A stretch of DNA of 62,370 nucleotides, from NCBI GenBank assembly GCA_031272035.1, contig JAISUO010000046.1, forward strand, positions 1 to 62,370. Direction: 5' to 3'. The notes beneath the pieces are model-generated. The model saw only the letters and a list, made by a program, of their open reading frames with translations, had not been told where the DNA came from and did not search any database. The position numbers and the translations under genes were made by a program. Source of the stretch: Synergistaceae bacterium (GTDB taxonomy: Bacteria > Synergistota > Synergistia > Synergistales > Aminobacteriaceae). This document shows positions 8,544 through 54,605 of the stretch, piece by piece (position 1 is the stretch's first letter; each line of letters begins with the position of its first letter).

Positions 8544-9884
8544 TCAGGGCGCGCATAAATTCAGAACGACGCCGGCGACCAGAAAATAGACGATCAGGCC
8601 GCCGGCATCCACCAGGGTCGTGACGATGGGGGCGGCCATCAGTGCGGGGTCGAACTTCAGCCGCCGCGCCAGAAGGGGCAGCATACTGCCGATGAGGTTG
8701 GCGAAGAGAACCGTGGCGAAAAGGCTCGTTCCGACGATCAGCCCCAGGGAGAGGCTGCCGCTCAGAAGCCATTTGTAGGCTACGTTGATGACGCCCAGCA
8801 CTCCGCCGACCAGTGTGCTGATTCGCAGTTCTTTCCAGAAAATCGAGATCCAGTCGGCAAGTTCCAGTTCTCCCACCGCCATGCCGCGGATGATCAGAGT
8901 GGAGGACTGGGAGCCCGCGTTTCCTCCCGTGTCCATCAGCATGGGAATGGCGGAAATCAGAGCCGGAAGCGCCGCGAAGAGGGCTTCGTAGTGGGTGATG
9001 ATGCCTCCCGTGAAAAACGCGCTCACCATAAGAAACAGCAGCCAGCCGATCCGGCGTTTCGCCATCTCGAAGACCCCCGCCGAAAGGTAGGGATCGTCGG
9101 AGGGCTTCATTGCCGCCATGAGGTGAAAGTCCTCCGTGTTTTCCTCCTCCAGAACTTCCATCGCGTCGTCGACGGTGATGATGCCCACCAAATGCCGCTC
9201 CGTGTCCACCACAGGCAGGGCGATGAGGTCGTACTTCTGGAAGATCTCCGCCACCTGTTCCCGATCGTCGCCGGTGGTGGCATAGATGATGTTCCGGCTC
9301 ATGATGTCGCCGATGCGGTCCGTGGGCTCCGACAGCAGAAGGGTTTTCACGGTGACTACCCCTTTGAGAATGCGCTTCGCATCGGTGACGTAGCAGGTGT
9401 AAATGGTTTCCTTGTCCATGCCCTCCCGGCGAATGCGTCGGAAGGCCGCCTCCACGTCCATCTCCTCTTTCAGGCTGATGTACTCCGTGGTCATGATGCT
9501 GCCCGCCGAGTCCTCCCGATAGCGGAGAAGCTGGTTGATCTGGTTTCGCGTGTCCTCCGAGACGTTTTTCAGGACGCGTTTGACCACGTTCGCCGGCATT
9601 TCTTCGACAAAATCCACGGCGTCGTCCAGAAACAGGTCGTTGACGATATGAGAAAGCTCCGGATCCGTCAGAAGACTGATGAGGTTTTCCTGCGTATCCG
9701 GCTGAAGATAGGAAAAAACGCTGGCCGCGGCATCCTTGGGCAGAGAGCGGAACAGCACCACCCGCCGTTCCGGAGTCAGTTCCTCCAGATCGTCGGCAAT
9801 GTCAACCACGTTGGTGTTCAGCATGAGCTCCTTGAGCTGCCGGTGTTTTTTTGTGTCGATAAGTTCCGTGATGAGATCCGTCAT
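8544..9884 (-). CDS. mgtE: Magnesium transporter MgtE
   Basis: Gated Mg2+ channel of the inner membrane. The 446-residue protein shows the full MgtE order: N-terminal helical domain with repeated LFRSLP-like units (residues 10-130), two CBS domains (about 135-260, including the IPVV-like segment LIALPVVDTERHLVGIITVD), and five C-terminal membrane helices with GGNAGSQSSTLIIRGMAVGE, the pore region. ATG at 9884 follows GGAGG, which lies in a hairpin (separate entry). It converges with the FAD-protein gene. In known MgtE proteins the CBS and N domains sense cytoplasmic Mg2+ and close the channel. Confidence 0.95.
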   Translation of the reverse strand: MTDLITELIDTKKHRQLKELMLNTNVVDIADDLEELTPERRVVLFRSLPKDAAASVFSYLQPDTQENLISLLTDPELSHIVNDLFLDDAVDFVEEMPANVVKRVLKNVSEDTRNQINQLLRYREDSAGSIMTTEYISLKEEMDVEAAFRRIRREGMDKETIYTCYVTDAKRILKGVVTVKTLLLSEPTDRIGDIMSRNIIYATTGDDREQVAEIFQKYDLIALPVVDTERHLVGIITVDDAMEVLEEENTEDFHLMAAMKPSDDPYLSAGVFEMAKRRIGWLLFLMVSAFFTGGIITHYEALFAALPALISAIPMLMDTGGNAGSQSSTLIIRGMAVGELELADWISIFWKELRISTLVGGVLGVINVAYKWLLSGSLSLGLIVGTSLFATVLFANLIGSMLPLLARRLKFDPALMAAPIVTTLVDAGGLIVYFLVAGVVLNLCAP

Positions 9885-9891
9885 GAGATAA

Positions 9892-9957
9892 CCTCCGTTT
9901 CCCGGAGCGGAGGGCTCAGACGTGTGAGAGGATCAGTGGGCTTCTCCGGGGAAACCC
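9892..9957 (-). promoter_or_regulatory. Structured mgtE leader with a ribosome-site hairpin
   Basis: CCTCCG (9892-9897) and CGGAGG (9908-9913) form a perfect 6-bp inverted repeat. On the mgtE transcript the strand complementary to 9892-9897 is the GGAGG ribosome site, so the stem would hide it. A second hairpin lies just upstream (9938-9944 with 9951-9957, 7 bp with one wobble). The pair suggests translational control. It does not match the M-box consensus as far as I can judge by eye. Confidence 0.45.
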
Positions 9958-10084
9958 GCGTTACCTTTCCCGCACGGCCCGCCGCCGTCCGTTCAATTTA
10001 AGCGTCCTTCGCGAAGGGGGGTAACTTTCAGGCCCTGCGTCCATGCGCAACTCACTTCCTTTTCTTTTTGAAATTTTTACTTTT

Positions 10085-10606
10085 TTACTGAACAGAAACA
10101 TAAATCAATCCGTGTCCCGACAGCCAGATGCTGAGACAGGAAAAAACGACAAACATCACAAAGGCCGTTTCACCCTGGCTCATTTGCCCGGGAACGTCGG
10201 CCACCCGAAAAAAATACCAGCCGAACGTCTTTCGCCAGGGAACCAACAGAGGAACCCTGCCGCAGCAGGCGTCGCAGAAAATATGCAGCAGCCCGCCGAG
10301 AAACCAGAATGCCGCGCAGGTGGAGAAAGTTTCCAGAACATGGGTTCCCAGTTCCTGCGGAAAGGTGCTCAGCTGCGGAACCAGCCCGCTTCCCCATCGG
10401 TAATAACAGAAAATAAACGCCGCCCCGTAGAGCACGAACCAGTGCGATGTCCTTCTGTGATGCCGCCCCCGTTTTTTTCTCCAGATTATGTGCTCGATTC
10501 TGTCGGGGAACGTACTGCCCATTGCCGCCAGCGCCGAGGCCAAAAGCGAATCCGTGGTCGCCATCAGAATCGCGAAGGCCGTTATTCGATGTCCTTTACC
10601 TGTCAC
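10085..10606 (-). CDS. YdjM-like membrane-bound metal-dependent hydrolase
   Basis: A 173-residue membrane protein with four to five hydrophobic segments and the His/Asp signature of the YdjM/DUF457 family: GKGHR at the N-terminus, FPDRIEH, HRRTSHW and GGLLHIFCDAC. These polar residues are thought to bind a metal, and the biological role of the family is poorly known (E. coli YdjM is SOS-regulated). The start at 10606 is GTG with only a weak ribosome site, so the true start is uncertain. It follows the slipin gene on the same strand after a 128-bp spacer with repeated GCATTTT words. Confidence 0.75.
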   Translation of the reverse strand: MTGKGHRITAFAILMATTDSLLASALAAMGSTFPDRIEHIIWRKKRGRHHRRTSHWFVLYGAAFIFCYYRWGSGLVPQLSTFPQELGTHVLETFSTCAAFWFLGGLLHIFCDACCGRVPLLVPWRKTFGWYFFRVADVPGQMSQGETAFVMFVVFSCLSIWLSGHGLIYVSVQ

Positions 10607-10734
10607 ACGTCAACCGCATTTCTTTAAATCATACTTCCTGATTGCATTTTCCTGCAATTACATTTTTTTTCAATCGCATTTTCTGTCGTTTTTTCTGCAA
10701 AAAACACCTGTTTCGCTCATTGTCCCATTTGCGG

Positions 10735-11547
10735 TCAGACGCCCTGTCCGCCCTGTTTTTCCTCTCTCGACAGCGTCTTTTCGATGAAAGGGCGAAGGAG
10801 GTCCACGGGGATCGGAAAGAACGTGGTGGAGTTGCGTTCGCCGGAGATTTCCCGAATCGTCTGCAGGTAGCGGAGCTGAAGCGTGACGGGAGACACTTCC
10901 ATTTGCTTCGCGGCCTCGGAAAGTTTCGTGGCCGCCTGAAGTTCTCCCTCGGCGGCGATGATTTTTGCGCGGCGTTCCCGTTCGGCCTCGGCCTGACGGG
11001 CCATGGCGCGCTTCATGCCGTCGGGAAGCTCCAGTTCCTTCACCTCCACGGCGCTGACCTTGATGCCCCAGGGATCTGTGCGCTCATCGATGATTTTCTG
11101 AAGCTCCTGGTTGATCTTTTCTCTGGAGGAGAGGACCTCGTCCAGTTCCACGGACCCCACCACGGATCTCAGTGTGGTTTGGGCGAGCTGACTCGTGGCC
11201 ATGACGTAGTTTTCGACTTCCACCACGGAATGAGACGGGTCCATGACGCGGAAATACACCACCGCGTTCACCTTGATGGGGACGTTGTCCTTTGTGATGA
11301 CCTCCTGAACGGGGACGTCCATGGTCAGGATCCTCAGGTCCACCGTGGTCACGCGGTCGATGACGGGAATGACGAACACCACCCCCGGTCCCCGGCTGCC
11401 GGCCAGACGCCCCAGGCGGAAAACAACGAGCCGCCTGTACTCCGGGACAATCCTGATTGCTGACGACAGAATCAGAAACAGGATAAAAAATATGCCCAGC
11501 CAGCTTCCAATGTTGGATAACATCCCAAAAGCAGCGTCGATCCTCAC
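10735..11547 (-). CDS. Slipin/SPFH-domain membrane protein (stomatin-like)
   Basis: A 270-residue protein with one N-terminal membrane helix ([18 protein letters not shown], about residues 12-29), then a band-7 domain starting [16 protein letters not shown]. The [14 protein letters not shown] segment and [15 protein letters not shown] are diagnostic for slipins, and a long charged coiled-coil rich in Ala/Glu/Arg ([14 protein letters not shown]) follows. Slipins form oligomeric membrane scaffolds. A neighbouring NfeD-type partner protease, common for the family, is absent. The start is GTG at 11547 with GGAGAGGG upstream. Confidence 0.9.
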
Positions 11548-11717
11548 AGCAAACCCTCTCCTTCAATATAAAAATTTTCAGAAATTATCGTTCTTTCAGG
11601 CGTTTTCCCTGAGTCTTTTTATATTAAAAGCATAACACAACGAAGCCGGAACGGAAGAAAAAATGCGATGTAAAAAAATGCGATGTGAAAATACGGGCAC
11701 TTTTCCGTACAGGCAGT

Positions 11718-12326
11718 TTAGACCGGAGAGTTTTCCTCCGCGGCGGGCAGCGGACGATGGGACAGCAGCCCCGCCCCTTCCAGCGTCGGAACCGCTCTGG
11801 AGGCCAGCCAGCCGCTTACCACAATTTTGATGAGATCGGGAACGAGGAAGGGAAGAAAAGCGAGTTGCACGACTCGGACAAAATCCAGTTCTTTTCCCGC
11901 GGCGAAGCGCATGATCAGATAAAAGCCCGGCAGTCCAACGGCGTAGAGCCCGACCGTGGCGGCCAGAGAGACGAGGGCGTACTGCAGAAACGTTTGAGCT
12001 TTCGAGGCGAGCAGTCCTCCGATCCAGGAAGCAACGATAAAGCCAATTAAAAAGCCGAAACTGGGAGAAAAAACAGTCTGTGGTCCACCTGTTCCTCCGG
12101 CGAAAACGGGCAGACCGATCAGGCCCATGACCACGTAGAGCATCTGGGAAAGCGGCCCGTATTTCGGCCCCAGCAGCAATCCCGACATCAGCACGATAAA
12201 CGACTGAACCGTTATCGGAACCGGCATGAAGGGCAGCGGAACCGACAGCATGGCTCCGATGGAGGTCAAAACGGCAAAAAAAGCGGTCAAAAGAAGATTT
12301 TTAAGTGGAAATGTTTTGTTGCTCAT
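11718..12326 (-). CDS. bioY: Biotin transporter BioY (ECF S component)
   Basis: Membrane substrate-binding subunit for biotin, 202 residues with six hydrophobic segments. The family signature is present: FMPVPITVQSF in the first third, LYVVMGLIGLPVFAGG, then FGFLIGFIVASWIGG. No ECF ATPase or T component lies nearby, so BioY must work alone or share an energising module encoded elsewhere. It lies 25 bp downstream of birA on the same strand and is very probably cotranscribed with it from the BirA-controlled promoter at 13416-13450. Start ATG follows AAAGGA. Confidence 0.93.
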   Translation of the reverse strand: MSNKTFPLKNLLLTAFFAVLTSIGAMLSVPLPFMPVPITVQSFIVLMSGLLLGPKYGPLSQMLYVVMGLIGLPVFAGGTGGPQTVFSPSFGFLIGFIVASWIGGLLASKAQTFLQYALVSLAATVGLYAVGLPGFYLIMRFAAGKELDFVRVVQLAFLPFLVPDLIKIVVSGWLASRAVPTLEGAGLLSHRPLPAAEENSPV

Positions 12327-12351
12327 GATTTCAGGGTCCTTTCTTTCAGGT

Positions 12352-13347
12352 TTACTTCAGTTTCAGGCTGACTTCCTCGGAACTGAGACGTATCCGTCCC
12401 GTTTCATTTTCGACGATGAGCGCACCTCCGTCGTCGATACCCGTGGCCAGGGCGCTGAAGGTTTCCGTTCCGGTGAAGACCTGGACGGTTCGCCCCAGCA
12501 CGTACTGACGGCTTCGGTATGCGTCCAGCAGTTCTTTTTTCCGGCCCTCGGCGAGAGCGATGCAGAAGGGCTCCAGACGGTTCAGGATTTCCGCCGCCAG
12601 TTCGTTCCGATCCGGACTGCCCCCAGTGAGCTGACCCAGGGATGTGGCGATTTCCCGCAAATCTTCGCCCACGGATCCCGTATTGACTCCAATCCCGATG
12701 ACGACGTGACTCATGCGTTGCAGCTCCAGGGATACGGCTCCCTCCGTCAAAATGCCGCAGAGTTTTTTGCCGTCGCACCAGACGTCATTGACCCATTTGA
12801 TTTGGGGGTTCAGATCATAGAGGGCTTCAATCGCCTCACAGACGGCCAGTCCCGCGCAGATGGTCAAAAAACGCGTTTCGTCGGCGGGAATGTCCGGCTT
12901 CAGCAGTATGCTCATGTAGAGCCCTTCTCCGGGGAGAGAGAGAAAAGGCCTGTTTTTGCGGCCTTTGCCTTTCGTCTGCCCGTCTGCCACAACGACGAAA
13001 CCCGCTTCTGTCGAAGTCAGGTCCATTCTCCTGATGTAGGCGTTAGTGGAGTCCACGGATTTCAGAACTTCGAGGCGACGCCCCAAAAATCGGGTTTTCA
13101 GACCAGATTGAATGAAAACTTCGGAGAGAACCCCGTTTCGACTCACAAAACGATAACCTCGCCGCGAAACGGACTCGATGGCGCAGCCACGCTCCTGCAG
13201 CAGTTTGATGATTTTCCACACGGCAACCCGGGAAACGCCCAGCTTCCGTGCCAGCTCTTCACCGGTGACAATTTCTCCCGCCTGTTCCTCCAGCAACGCC
13301 AGCACTCTGTCTTTGGCGAGGCCCGCTTCTCTCGTCTCCTGTCCCAT
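12352..13347 (-). CDS. birA: Biotin-protein ligase / biotin operon repressor BirA
   Basis: Bifunctional protein of 332 residues. It forms biotinyl-AMP and loads biotin on carboxylase subunits, and in the holo form it represses biotin genes. The N-terminus has a winged helix (VTGEELARKLGVSRVAVWK, then SRRGYRF). The catalytic part carries the adenylate loop GKGRKNRPFLS and the KWVNDVW and KLCGIL segments. I chose ATG at 13347 because AGGAGG precedes it, although an in-frame TTG lies eight codons further up and overlaps that site. A BirA operator upstream indicates autoregulation. Followed by bioY. Confidence 0.94.
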   Translation of the reverse strand: MGQETREAGLAKDRVLALLEEQAGEIVTGEELARKLGVSRVAVWKIIKLLQERGCAIESVSRRGYRFVSRNGVLSEVFIQSGLKTRFLGRRLEVLKSVDSTNAYIRRMDLTSTEAGFVVVADGQTKGKGRKNRPFLSLPGEGLYMSILLKPDIPADETRFLTICAGLAVCEAIEALYDLNPQIKWVNDVWCDGKKLCGILTEGAVSLELQRMSHVVIGIGVNTGSVGEDLREIATSLGQLTGGSPDRNELAAEILNRLEPFCIALAEGRKKELLDAYRSRQYVLGRTVQVFTGTETFSALATGIDDGGALIVENETGRIRLSSEEVSLKLK

Positions 13348-13415
13348 GACAATATTCCTCCTTTCCTGCAAAAGACCTGCAAAATATTACGGAGGATAGC
13401 ATGAAGACGTTCTTC

Positions 13416-13445
13416 TGTAAACCTGTATTTATAAAAAGGTTAACA
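13416..13445 (-). promoter_or_regulatory. BirA operator overlapping the birA-bioY promoter
   Basis: TGTAAACC (13416-13423), exactly 14 bases, then GGTTAACA (13438-13445) matches the bacterial BirA operator TTGTnAACC-N14/16-GGTTnACAA closely. On the minus strand a TATAAATA -10 region lies inside the spacer, and a weak TTTCAA -35 lies upstream. Bound BirA would therefore block the promoter of birA-bioY. Confidence 0.8.
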
Positions 13446-13454
13446 CATTTGAAA

Positions 13455-13482
13455 CCTGACGGGAGAACGAAGACCCGTCAGG
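13455..13482 (-). terminator. Hairpin after the first chemoreceptor gene
   Basis: CCTGACGGG (13455-13463) and CCCGTCAGG (13474-13482) make a perfect 9-bp stem with a ten-base loop. Read on the minus strand it follows the chemoreceptor gene and is trailed only by TTT, so termination may be partial. Its right arm is the first unit of a threefold 15-bp repeat. Confidence 0.5.
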
Positions 13483-51046: not shown

Positions 51047-52555
51047 CTATTCGAAATAAGTCTGATAGTACTGATGATTTCCGGAGGGCTCGAAGATGAA
51101 GCCTTTGACGTTTTTCTGCATTCCGATCAGAAGGTCGTTGACGTGCAGGTATCCCCAGGCGGCGTCGTCCAGAATCATGTGCTGCAGCTTGTGGTAGATC
51201 GCCTCGCGTTCAGGGCCGTCGTTGACGCGCTTGCCCTCCTCCAGCAGCTTGTCCACCTCCGGATTTCCGTAGACGCCTCGGTTGAGCCCCGTCAGCTTCT
51301 GGGAGGAGTGGAACACCCCGAACAGGCTGTAGTCCGGGTCGGCGATGACCGAGTTCCATGCCTGCAGGTAGAGCTGCTGTTCCCGCTGTTTCAGCTTTTC
51401 GAGGAACGCGCCCCACTCCATGACCTGAATGGAGATGTCGATTCCCACCTTTTTGAGCTGGCTCTGAATGATGGTCGCCGTGTCCGTGTAGGTTTTGTCG
51501 TCGCGGCACCAGAGCTCCAGCTTCATGCCGTCCTTATAGCCGGCCTCCGCAAGAAGGGCTTTGGCCTTCTCCACGTCCGGCAGAATTTCCGGCAGACTGG
51601 TGTCGTAATACTTGATGGTGGGCGGCACGGGACCTCTTGGAGGCTGTCCCACGTTGCGGAAGGCTATTTTCACGATGGGCCGGTTGTCCACGGCCAGGTT
51701 GATGGCCTTACGCACGCGGATGTCGCTGAGAGGCTCGTTGGAGACGTTCATGCCCAGGTACATGACGCTGCGGGAGGGAACTCTCAGAAGGGAGAGTTTT
51801 GCGTTGTTCGAAACCTTGTCCACATCGATGGGCAGAATGTTCAGCGCCACGTCCGCGCCTCCGGTCTCCAGTTCGATGCAGCGGCTGGTTCCCTCCGTGA
51901 TGGTGCGGAAAATCAGGTTCGGAGTCTTCGCCTTGTCGCCCCAGTAGCCGTCGAAGCCCTTGAGGACGATGCGGTTGCCCTTCTGCCAGCTCACGAACTG
52001 ATAGGGGCCCGTCCCCACGGGCTGGGTGCCCACGTTGTCTCCGGCGTCCTTCACGGCCTTCTCGCTGAGAATGACCCCGGCGCAGTAGTGGGAAAGGCAG
52101 GCCAGAAAGCTGCTGTCCGGCGTCTTCGAGGGGACGATGATGGTGTAGTCGTCGAGGATCTGAATTTTGTCGATGTCGATGTTGCGGACCACGTAGTCGA
52201 TGACCTTGCCCGTGTTCACGGCGCGGGTGAAGGTGAACTTCACGTCCGAGGCCTTCAGTTCCTCGCCGTTGTGGAATTTGACGCCCTTTCTGAGATAAAA
52301 TTTATAGTTCAGGTCGTCCAACTTTTCGTACTTTTCCGCCAGCAGAGGAACAATTTCGCCGTCTCGAATCGTGATCAGAGACTCCATCATCTGGTTCATA
52401 ACGCCGGTGGAGGCCAGGTCCGGAGCGGCGTGAGGATCGAGGCTCTTGGAATCGGCGGCCATAATGACCGTAAGCGTATCGCCCTGCGCAAAGGCCGCCC
52501 CTGCGGCAACCGCCAGCAGAACGCATATCGACAGCACAATATATAGCTTCTTCAT
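51047..52555 (-). CDS. dppA: Peptide ABC transporter substrate-binding protein (DppA/OppA, SBP_bac_5)
   Basis: Periplasmic binding protein of 502 residues, type II cluster C. A Sec signal peptide (MKKLYIVLSICVLLAVAAGA, cleavage after AFA) is followed by DTLTVIMAADSKSLDPHAAP, the usual start of the mature protein, and VKFHNGEELKASDVKFT, the most diagnostic block. No lipobox Cys. ATG at 52555 was chosen since the longer frame lacks a signal peptide. It has its own strong promoter. Dipeptides, oligopeptides or glutathione-like compounds are possible ligands. Confidence 0.94.
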   Translation of the reverse strand: MKKLYIVLSICVLLAVAAGAAFAQGDTLTVIMAADSKSLDPHAAPDLASTGVMNQMMESLITIRDGEIVPLLAEKYEKLDDLNYKFYLRKGVKFHNGEELKASDVKFTFTRAVNTGKVIDYVVRNIDIDKIQILDDYTIIVPSKTPDSSFLACLSHYCAGVILSEKAVKDAGDNVGTQPVGTGPYQFVSWQKGNRIVLKGFDGYWGDKAKTPNLIFRTITEGTSRCIELETGGADVALNILPIDVDKVSNNAKLSLLRVPSRSVMYLGMNVSNEPLSDIRVRKAINLAVDNRPIVKIAFRNVGQPPRGPVPPTIKYYDTSLPEILPDVEKAKALLAEAGYKDGMKLELWCRDDKTYTDTATIIQSQLKKVGIDISIQVMEWGAFLEKLKQREQQLYLQAWNSVIADPDYSLFGVFHSSQKLTGLNRGVYGNPEVDKLLEEGKRVNDGPEREAIYHKLQHMILDDAAWGYLHVNDLLIGMQKNVKGFIFEPSGNHQYYQTYFE

Positions 52556-52720
52556 TTGAATAAACACCCTCCTCGGGACAATCATAATCTTCCCAATTTC
52601 AGACCATAAAAACCATCCGTCAACACCCCTGTACATATCGCCGAAAAGGATTCAGCGTCCCCTATGATCACCTCTTTATCAGAAAATAATCAAATTAATT
52701 TGTTAAAAGATTGTTTGATC

Positions 52721-52749
52721 ATTATAGAGCAGAGATATAGAGATGTCTA
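52721..52749 (-). promoter_or_regulatory. Sigma-70 promoter of the dpp operon
   Basis: On the minus strand TAGACA (52749-52744), exactly 17 bp, then a perfect TATAAT (52726-52721). The predicted leader is about 160 nt. Just upstream lie three 14-bp near-repeats starting ATTTGTGTTAAGTT (52754, 52768, 52782). Confidence 0.7.
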
Positions 52750-52857
52750 ATCTATTTGTGTTAAGTTATTTGTGTAAAGTTATGTTAAGCCAAACGTCAC
52801 GGAGGATACGGCAGGTTTGTGGTTTTGAAGTCTTCAGCCGGGTTGCGCGGGCTTTTA

Positions 52858-52902
52858 CCAAAAAAAAGTCATATGCCCCATCTCCGGCGAGAGCATATGA
52901 CT
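52858..52902 (-). terminator. Strong terminator after the small-protein pair
   Basis: Perfect 10-bp stem (AGTCATATGC at 52867-52876 with GCATATGACT at 52893-52902), a 16-base loop and a run of eight T on the minus strand. It starts 11 bases after the 79-residue gene. Confidence 0.9.
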
Positions 52903-52912
52903 GTGTGTGGCA

Positions 52913-53152
52913 TCAATCCAAATAATTTCCTACATCGTAGCTGTTGAGCTGTTTTTTTATCCTGACGATGATGGAGCCGTTGTCACACGTTTTTTCGTCG
53001 AGGATTTTGTACTTCGTATGGTTGTAGTCGAGGGAGTTTTTATAGTCTTCGTATTCTTCCCTCGCTTTCTTTGCCGCCTGCTCCGGAGCAAATCCGTCCC
53101 GAAGCTGAAAATGAAGCGTCTGATGAAGACACGCGAATTGAATGCGTCTCAT
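52913..53152 (-). CDS. Small protein, unknown family (paralogue of the next gene)
   Basis: A 79-residue soluble protein with no signal peptide or membrane helix. ATG at 53152 has AAAGGAAGG upstream. Its C-terminal 46 residues align without gaps to the neighbouring 67-residue protein, sharing Y..Y..LD, Y.ILD, GS and G.YL (14 identities), and both begin with ACLxQTxxF. The difference is an extra charged stretch in the middle (PEQAAKKAREEYEDY). It is the distal gene of a two-gene unit ending at a strong terminator. I know no family for it. Confidence 0.72.
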   Translation of the reverse strand: MRRIQFACLHQTLHFQLRDGFAPEQAAKKAREEYEDYKNSLDYNHTKYKILDEKTCDNGSIIVRIKKQLNSYDVGNYLD

Positions 53153-53202
53153 TGTTTTTACCTTCCTTTCATTTGCCTTCCTTTCATTCGGCCCCTGGAA
53201 CG

Positions 53203-53406
53203 TCAGTTCAGATAATCGCCTGTGGGATACGTGCTGTAGTCCCTGAGCATCTTTATGACAACGCTGCCGTCGGACTGGTTTTGCTTATCGAGAATTCTGT
53301 ACCTGACACGCTTGCGGTCAAGCCCTTTAATATAAGTTTGATAAGCGTTTTCCGTGTCGAACTTCTGCGTCTGTTCCAGACACGCGGTCAGAATACGATA
53401 TTTCAT
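53203..53406 (-). CDS. Small protein, unknown family (first of a paralogous pair)
   Basis: A 67-residue protein starting at ATG 53406, chosen because AAGGAGGTGA lies just upstream; a longer frame to 53532 lacks this. Sequence features: ACLEQTQKFD at the N-terminus, RYRILDKQNQSDGSVVIKM in the middle and YPTGDYLN at the end, the same layout as the 79-residue gene 50 bp downstream. Probably a compact alpha/beta fold. Function unknown. The 50-bp gap between the genes carries a perfect 13-bp repeat (CCTTCCTTTCATT at 53161 and 53176). Confidence 0.72.
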   Translation of the reverse strand: MKYRILTACLEQTQKFDTENAYQTYIKGLDRKRVRYRILDKQNQSDGSVVIKMLRDYSTYPTGDYLN

Positions 53407-53789
53407 TTCGCTCACCTCCTTCTGACAATGCGGAGGCACATGCAGGCGCATTTGTCGAATTTCGCGTTTTTTGTGTACAAAAATAACGGCCCGCCACAGC
53501 AGAACTTGCGTTCCACAGGGCAAAGCGCACATTAGACTGTCTGGAGTGTAGCATATTTTTTAAATCCATGTAATACTATAGTCTTATGCTGTTTCTTTAA
53601 AAAATCACGTGTATTCGCTTATGTCGGACAGAAAAAATGTGTCAGGCTCTTTCTGACGCAAGGAGCTGTGTCAATCACGTAAATCCGATTGTTTCGCGCT
53701 GCTCGTTTTTTATTTTGTACGAAATATTCTGATCGGCATGGTATATACTACACGGAGCGTCAGTCAGAGGCGGAACAGGGGAGGTTCAG
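53407..53789. promoter_or_regulatory. Divergent promoter region between small proteins and DUF218 gene
   Basis: No further gene seen. Minus strand: TTACAT (53573-53568), 17 bp, TACACT (53550-53545) would drive the small-protein pair with a leader near 135 nt. Plus strand: an extended -10 of the form TGGTATATA lies about 45 bp before the DUF218 start. In between, GTCAG and CTGAC form a small hairpin. Confidence 0.45.
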
Positions 53790-54605
53790 GTGTACGGCGG
53801 GGTCGTTTTTTTCCTTTATAAACTGATCGGCGGGCTTTTGACACCTCCGGGGTGTTTTTTCGCTCTGCTGTTTCCCCTTCTGCTGTGGCAGGCTCTCGGT
53901 GCGCGGAGCCGGGGTGAAAAGTGGCGAAGTCGGGCTGCGCTTTTTCTCCTCGTTCTGTTGTACGCTCTGTTCATGCCGGTGACGTCGGATTTTCTGATGA
54001 GGCAGGTGGAGACGGGCCGTCCGCCTCTGCCCCGAGACGAAACCCCAACGCTGGTTCTGGCCCTGGCCGGAGGCGACACGCACCCCGTTCTCGACGTTTC
54101 CGGGGAGGCCGGGACGGAGGTGGAACTGTCCGCTCAGTCCTTTCAGCGTTTGGCGGAGGGGATTCTGGCGGCCAAAAGCCGCGGCTGGCCTCTGCTCTAT
54201 TCGGGGGCCTGGGAGGAAGGGGACGCCTCGGTGTACGAGGATTATCTCCGCGGTGAGGCGAAACGGCTGGGATTCGAAGGGGAAGTGCTGGTGGATGCGA
54301 GCTCCCGAAACACCTGGGAAAATCTGAGAGAGACCGCGAAAATCGTGAGGCAACGGGGATTCAAGCGGGTCGTTCTTTCCACCACGGCTTTCCACATGCG
54401 TCGGACGCTCTGGATGGCGAGGCGGCAAATGCCCGACGTGGAGCTTCTTCCCTGGCCCTCCGGATGGCGCTCCACCCGGGGGCGTTTTGCCGTCAATATT
54501 CTGGGAGTCAGCGCTCTGGCGTTTTACGATTCCTGCATGGCCCTGAGAGAGCTGGCCGGCCTCGCCGCGTACCGCCTGTTGGGCGTCGGCAGCGCGTCAA
54601 AATAA
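53790..54605 (+). CDS. YdcF family (DUF218) membrane protein
   Basis: A 271-residue protein with two or three N-terminal hydrophobic segments (LYKLIGGLLTPPGCFFALLF, then ALFLLVLLYALFMPV) and a DUF218 domain. The latter is marked by LVLALAGGDTHPV, FQRLAEGILAAKSRGWPLLY, DASSRNTWENLRETAKIV and VVLSTTAFHMRRTLWMARR. The ElyC/SanA/YdcF group is linked to cell envelope maintenance; the reaction is unknown. Start GTG at 53790 with GGGGAGG upstream. It lies between the small-protein unit and the AT-rich cassette. Confidence 0.87.
   Translation: MYGGVVFFLYKLIGGLLTPPGCFFALLFPLLLWQALGARSRGEKWRSRAALFLLVLLYALFMPVTSDFLMRQVETGRPPLPRDETPTLVLALAGGDTHPVLDVSGEAGTEVELSAQSFQRLAEGILAAKSRGWPLLYSGAWEEGDASVYEDYLRGEAKRLGFEGEVLVDASSRNTWENLRETAKIVRQRGFKRVVLSTTAFHMRRTLWMARRQMPDVELLPWPSGWRSTRGRFAVNILGVSALAFYDSCMALRELAGLAAYRLLGVGSASK

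Follow-up and report, generated by a model that had tools for sequence, protein, structure and literature searches.

In mycobacteria/actinobacteria, the small protein CrsL is described as binding CarD directly, modulating transcription initiation (PMC12709188). CarD proteins carry a wedge tryptophan that, in the published account, is conserved in over 95% of them and that in Thermus CarD is required for full activation (PMC4593161). A further point of comparison is the archaeal-type RNA ligase family, in which the dimer is reported to be made by the C-terminal domain (PMC3514331). Here we set beside these systems two adjacent small genes, A and B, found in a 62,370-nucleotide stretch of a Synergistaceae bacterium (contig JAISUO010000046.1, called the window below), together with their relatives in other genomes.

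The two genes lie 50 bp apart with B downstream (Table 1). The ribosome sites, which the original prediction had called good, are visible before both genes, that of B reading GGAAGG, and strong Shine-Dalgarno sites also stand ahead of the relatives of A. The strong private terminator was likewise borne out: the 63-nt stretch that contains it (52850-52912) folds at -22.2 kcal/mol with a z of -3.47, and the hairpin is absent from the list of the terminator scanner, which has a loop limit of 8. The promoter described as plausible was left unconfirmed, as no sigma-70-like site above the scanner threshold was found upstream of A. Rfam gave no match across the region 52600-53900. Ahead of an oligopeptide-binding-protein-like gene (51047-52636) there is a promoter-like minus-strand site that scores 11 of 12 matches (52749-52721).

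Table 1. Coordinates of the A and B genes and of their expression signals in the window
Feature	Position	Strand	Description	Relatives or basis
Gene A	53203..53406 (stop included)	minus	67 aa, first of pair	orthologues in Synergistota, Anaerolineaceae, Diplocloster
Gene B	52913..53152 (stop included)	minus	79 aa, second of pair, widespread family member	many relatives
Shine-Dalgarno site of A, AGGAGGTGA	53412..53420	minus		read in sequence
15-bp tandem duplication in A-B spacer	53161..53190	minus	doubles B's GGAAGG Shine-Dalgarno stretch	read in sequence
Intrinsic terminator of pair	52860..52902	minus	13-bp stem into eight U	

That A and B are paralogues, as first proposed from a common ACLxQTxxF N-terminus and a gap-free C-terminal region, held on closer comparison. 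The N-termini read ACLEQTQKF in A and ACLHQTLHF in B, and 14 of the 46 C-terminal residues are identical without a gap, a level equalled by one in 100,000 shuffles of one of the sequences (mean 3.5). A single BLASTP comparison of the two proteins gave E = 4e-12, and in a search of the whole genome each matched itself and the other alone (E 6.6e-6 and 2.0e-5). One motif needed correction, the spacing given as Y..Y..LD being in fact Y..Y...LD.

A and B are real genes of an unnamed family of small proteins, about 66-80 aa in length. Non-coding frames, which might have been expected to show neither homologues nor codon-level conservation, are countered on both counts: homologues are many, and pN was below pS throughout, in 260 of 260 pairs for B (median ratio 0.175) and in five of five for A (ratio 0.43, several of the A rows being copies of one locus), the pairs in neither case being independent of one another. 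The assignment to no known family also stood, neither protein fitting any library family above cut-off. Searches of Pfam, NCBIfam, PHROGs and PADLOC with A and B returned nothing significant, and when 62 family members were run against Pfam, NCBIfam and PHROGs, the matches were scattered and weak. The lowest E values in Pfam went to CENPH, matched by two of the 62 (best 3.8e-5), and to Lig_C, matched by 12 (best 1e-4); we count neither as significant across 62 related queries. Nothing fell below E 0.5 in a sequence search of the PDB, and we found no paper on this family or on its CarD link in the openly licensed literature searched.

The family is patchy in Synergistota and widespread among gut bacteria. 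With a two-row profile the pair was found in five of 185 Synergistota genomes, including the window's own; the four others each carry A and B, one of them as two pairs, and 13 further genomes of the phylum gave weak matches alone (E 0.02-0.1). At E <= 1e-5 the B family occurs in 38 of 300 Oscillospiraceae genomes (a survey centred on an Oscillospiraceae MAG), in 28 of 397 Lachnospiraceae genomes (centred on Diplocloster), where some copies are broken or partial, and in three of 147 Anaerolineaceae genomes (centred on an Anaerolineaceae MAG); these three surveys are named after the record titles of their central genomes. When one genome per species was scanned, 315 candidate stretches yielded 150 relatives of B, and the best 80 of these were kept. 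Broken or partial B genes were seen in several Clostridia (L222, L224-L228, L091), one with an in-frame stop, which suggests local decay of the gene. A subgroup of 72 aa is found in Lachnospiraceae (L218-L221, L223).

In a tree of 87 rows, rooted at the midpoint and with many inner forks open, the nine A sequences separate from the 78 of B with support of 100/99. A is present in Synergistota, in two Anaerolineaceae MAGs and in Diplocloster modestus, and it represents an old duplicate, its helix shortened, that was met solely ahead of B. All nine of its loci have A on the same strand before B, at 30-50 bp in eight; in the ninth (G149; L040, positions 9435-13475) about 4 kb of what by eye seem to be ABC transporter genes separates the two. 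The expectation that relatives keep both copies adjacent is thus upheld for the loci that bear A, eight of nine having it directly before B, but not for the family at large, since B is alone in most genomes. The window's B is the sister of the Diplocloster B (96/83), and two genomes of the window's genus are without the pair; on these sequence comparisons, horizontal transfer of the pair is likely.

A private terminator behind two small neighbouring genes, and a patchy distribution of five in 185 Synergistota genomes, are what one might look for in a toxin-antitoxin or antitoxin-like pair, and an antitoxin-like module was among the roles first suggested. That suggestion fared badly: A and B are themselves homologues, B is single in most genomes, no toxin-like partner recurs among the tallied neighbours, and no known toxin or antitoxin family was matched significantly in Pfam, NCBIfam or PADLOC, so that we consider this reading very improbable. 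An accessory gene borne by phages or plasmids is just as hard to sustain. It would account for one relative in a 'Bacteriophage sp.' record and for a full-length match in another record, filed as a plasmid, but scans of IMG/VR turned up no relative, and the open reading frames, when read, were of chromosomal type in the 'phage' and of sporulation type in the 'plasmid'; a mobile-element origin is therefore largely refuted. In the phage record (L038, MT835763.1) we read MATE, glutamate-transporter-like and nitroreductase-like frames, with a truncated B homologue that runs on into other sequence, and this scaffold is probably bacterial and chimeric. The other (L037, OY725836.1, filed as a Subdoligranulum plasmid) has germination-protease and other sporulation-type genes near B and looks chromosomal.

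The link of the A/B family to CarD is non-random. CarD is the commonest close neighbour: 46 of 106 dereplicated loci have a CarD-family gene at no more than 800 bp (106 of 138 loci were kept, with a score over 50 and under 90% identity to any kept locus). Counted per side per kb in the 65 of 80 loci that dereplication left, CarD matches reach 0.617 at up to 500 bp from B and drop to 0.035 at 0.5-1.5 kb, 0 at 1.5-3 kb and 0.007 at 3-6 kb. A second sample, made up of the 30 best-scoring of the 38 B-bearing Oscillospiraceae genomes and partially overlapping the first set, has CarD within 500 bp in 10 of its 30 loci. Because the 14 B-bearing genomes checked (2.4-7.4 Mb) have 0-2 CarD genes each, we estimate chance adjacency at about 0.1%.

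The arrangement of the genes varies among groups. B is followed by CarD 9-43 bp later in many Oscillospiraceae; the order is CarD, B, MATE in R. flavefaciens, CarD, A, B in Diplocloster, and MATE, Cytidylate_kin2, CarD, A, B in one of the Synergistota (G165), and the 72-aa subgroup of Lachnospiraceae is linked to CarD in four of five loci. Of five linked CarD-like proteins compared with Pfam, four pass PF02559, two of them also matching CarD_C (PF21095), and the fifth is a divergent copy without a Pfam match. Calling the neighbours by Pfam gives lower counts, with CarD as the next gene downstream in eight of 84 loci and upstream in eight of 70; the Pfam threshold misses many divergent CarDs that a dedicated CarD profile catches, and these lists, which cover 84 downstream and 70 upstream genes of 87 dereplicated loci, are noisy longest-ORF calls.

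Co-occurrence across genomes tells a different story in each of two groups. Among Synergistota, CarD was found in four of the five genomes with the pair and in 27 of 185 overall (hypergeometric P 0.0017, in a small sample). Among Oscillospiraceae it was not enriched with B (34 of 38 genomes against 255 of 300 overall, P = 0.29); CarD is near-universal in this family, so that there adjacency alone, not co-occurrence, supports the link. No CarD lies within 800 bp in 60 of the 106 loci, though many of these have short flanks, and none lies near the pair in the window, the CarD gene of that genome being on another contig, where by eye it adjoins NAD-dependent DNA ligase-like and metallopeptidase-like genes. 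Two of the 14 B-bearing genomes (G196 and G198) were likewise without a CarD match at E <= 0.001, and the link is thus not an obligatory one. One further genome (G163) has the pair and no CarD match, and scanning the loci for B-CarD fusions revealed none.

Structure prediction gives B a beta-alpha-beta-beta fold (mean pLDDT 92.6, pTM 0.76, from 61 alignment rows) and A the same fold with a shorter helix (mean pLDDT 88.2). As both are modelled as the same small open domain, the heteromer that had been suggested for A and B is plausible. The best Foldseek match of both models is the C-terminal region of an RNA ligase (8uch and sister entries), at E 6.3e-3 and probability 1.00 for A and at E 5.1e-2 for B, and the corresponding Pfam family, Lig_C (PF18330), is matched weakly, at E <= 0.1, by 12 of the 62 members, the best of them reaching 1e-4 over residues 4-71. 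On these models the likeness may reflect remote kinship or a common arrangement; the dimerisation of the ligase C-terminal domain fits a dimerising A and B and is no proof of it.

Such matches could also be read to mean that the proteins are free-standing RNA- or ribosome-binding or dimerisation domains, akin to ligase C-terminal domains or to the alpha/beta domains of translation factors, and that their link to CarD is indirect. The structural and weak sequence matches and the dimer formed by the ligase family's C-terminal domain, as reported in PMC3514331, would all agree with this. We nonetheless regard it as distinctly unlikely: the VIA Z for the ligase domain (4.9-5.2) is tied with many unrelated alpha/beta domains, the best Lig_C score among the ten members listed is 22.7 bits against a curated cut-off of 25 bits, and Lig_C is found in none of 39 genomes of the window's order.

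Transporter genes are the other recurrent neighbours. Of 84 next downstream genes 12 are MatE, the commonest Pfam family at that place, and 19 of 106 loci have a MATE gene at no more than 800 bp, an enrichment that falls off with distance from B. One may therefore imagine that B serves export of the MATE type (sometimes the ABC type) as a small regulator or ligand-binding protein, with CarD a frequent neighbour of the same islands; proteins of beta-alpha-beta-beta fold include ligand-binding oligomers such as the dodecins, whose fold matches B weakly (Z 4.0-4.3, rmsd 3.6-4.5). CarD is, however, the nearer and stronger neighbour, both CarD and MATE occur together in just four loci, and we recognised no MATE gene by eye around the pair in the window. 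MATE transporters are not known to need such a subunit, and taken together these points make a role in export rather unlikely.

The CarD genes beside B are of two kinds that differ by position. When CarD lies downstream on the same strand, 26 of 31 copies are without a tryptophan where the C-terminal domain begins; when it lies upstream on the same strand, 10 of 13 keep it. The tryptophan scored here is presumably the wedge tryptophan; in a HMMER alignment of the Diplocloster and M. tuberculosis CarD proteins, the two tryptophans stand a few residues apart, in different columns. From a CarD that lacks it one would expect binding to polymerase but no wedging open of the promoter. Tryptophan-less divergent CarD genes also lie directly beside canonical CarD genes in Synergistota that have neither A nor B (L174, L176, L178, L186-L190), one of these double-CarD genomes belonging to the window's genus.

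It was originally held that nothing in the sequence assigns a role to the pair. This remains true of the window itself, but the relatives offer a hint in the CarD genes that are their neighbours. The reading we favour, tentatively and at somewhat less than an even chance, is that A and B are small modulators of CarD-dependent transcription, B as a homodimer and A with B as a heterodimer, the binding and the dimerisation both being steps that we infer. B would pair with B, or A with B, and the dimers would act on CarD-dependent initiation, most simply by binding CarD or the CarD-polymerase complex; once bound, A/B might alter CarD activity in the manner of CrsL.

This modulator reading can be extended to one in which canonical CarD, its tryptophan-less paralogue and A/B make up a single RNA polymerase switch, an extension that we hold to be quite doubtful. 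The tryptophan-less CarD would compete for the same site on the polymerase but leave the open complex unstabilised; the B dimer or A-B heterodimer would bridge to, or release, one of the CarDs and so set promoter strength in response to some signal. All this would take place in gut anaerobes, in which control by CarD has been little studied. None of the four profile libraries searched has a model for the family, despite its presence in 38 of 300 genomes of one large gut family, and its link to CarD and to tryptophan-less CarD paralogues yields a concrete prediction about transcription initiation in these anaerobes.

Among the described systems close to A and B is CrsL, likewise small, whose partner is a CarD-type regulator of RNA polymerase, as it may be for A and B. 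In its published description (PMC12709188), CrsL is a 5.7-kDa protein, disordered until bound, whereas A and B are predicted to be folded; its gene is given as lying in an operon with otsA and not next to carD, whereas A/B are linked to CarD by gene neighbourhood. CarG of Myxococcus xanthus, which is presented as a partner of a CarD-family N-terminal domain (PMC4374960), would be similar to A/B in having a CarD-type partner. Lig_C, as known from the ligase Pab1020, is the best structural and the most recurrent weak sequence match, but A and B fall below the family cut-off and have no attached ligase domain, and Lig_C is absent from the related genomes searched. The dodecins are similar to A and B in length and match them weakly in structure, at a Z of about 4 only and without a sequence match.
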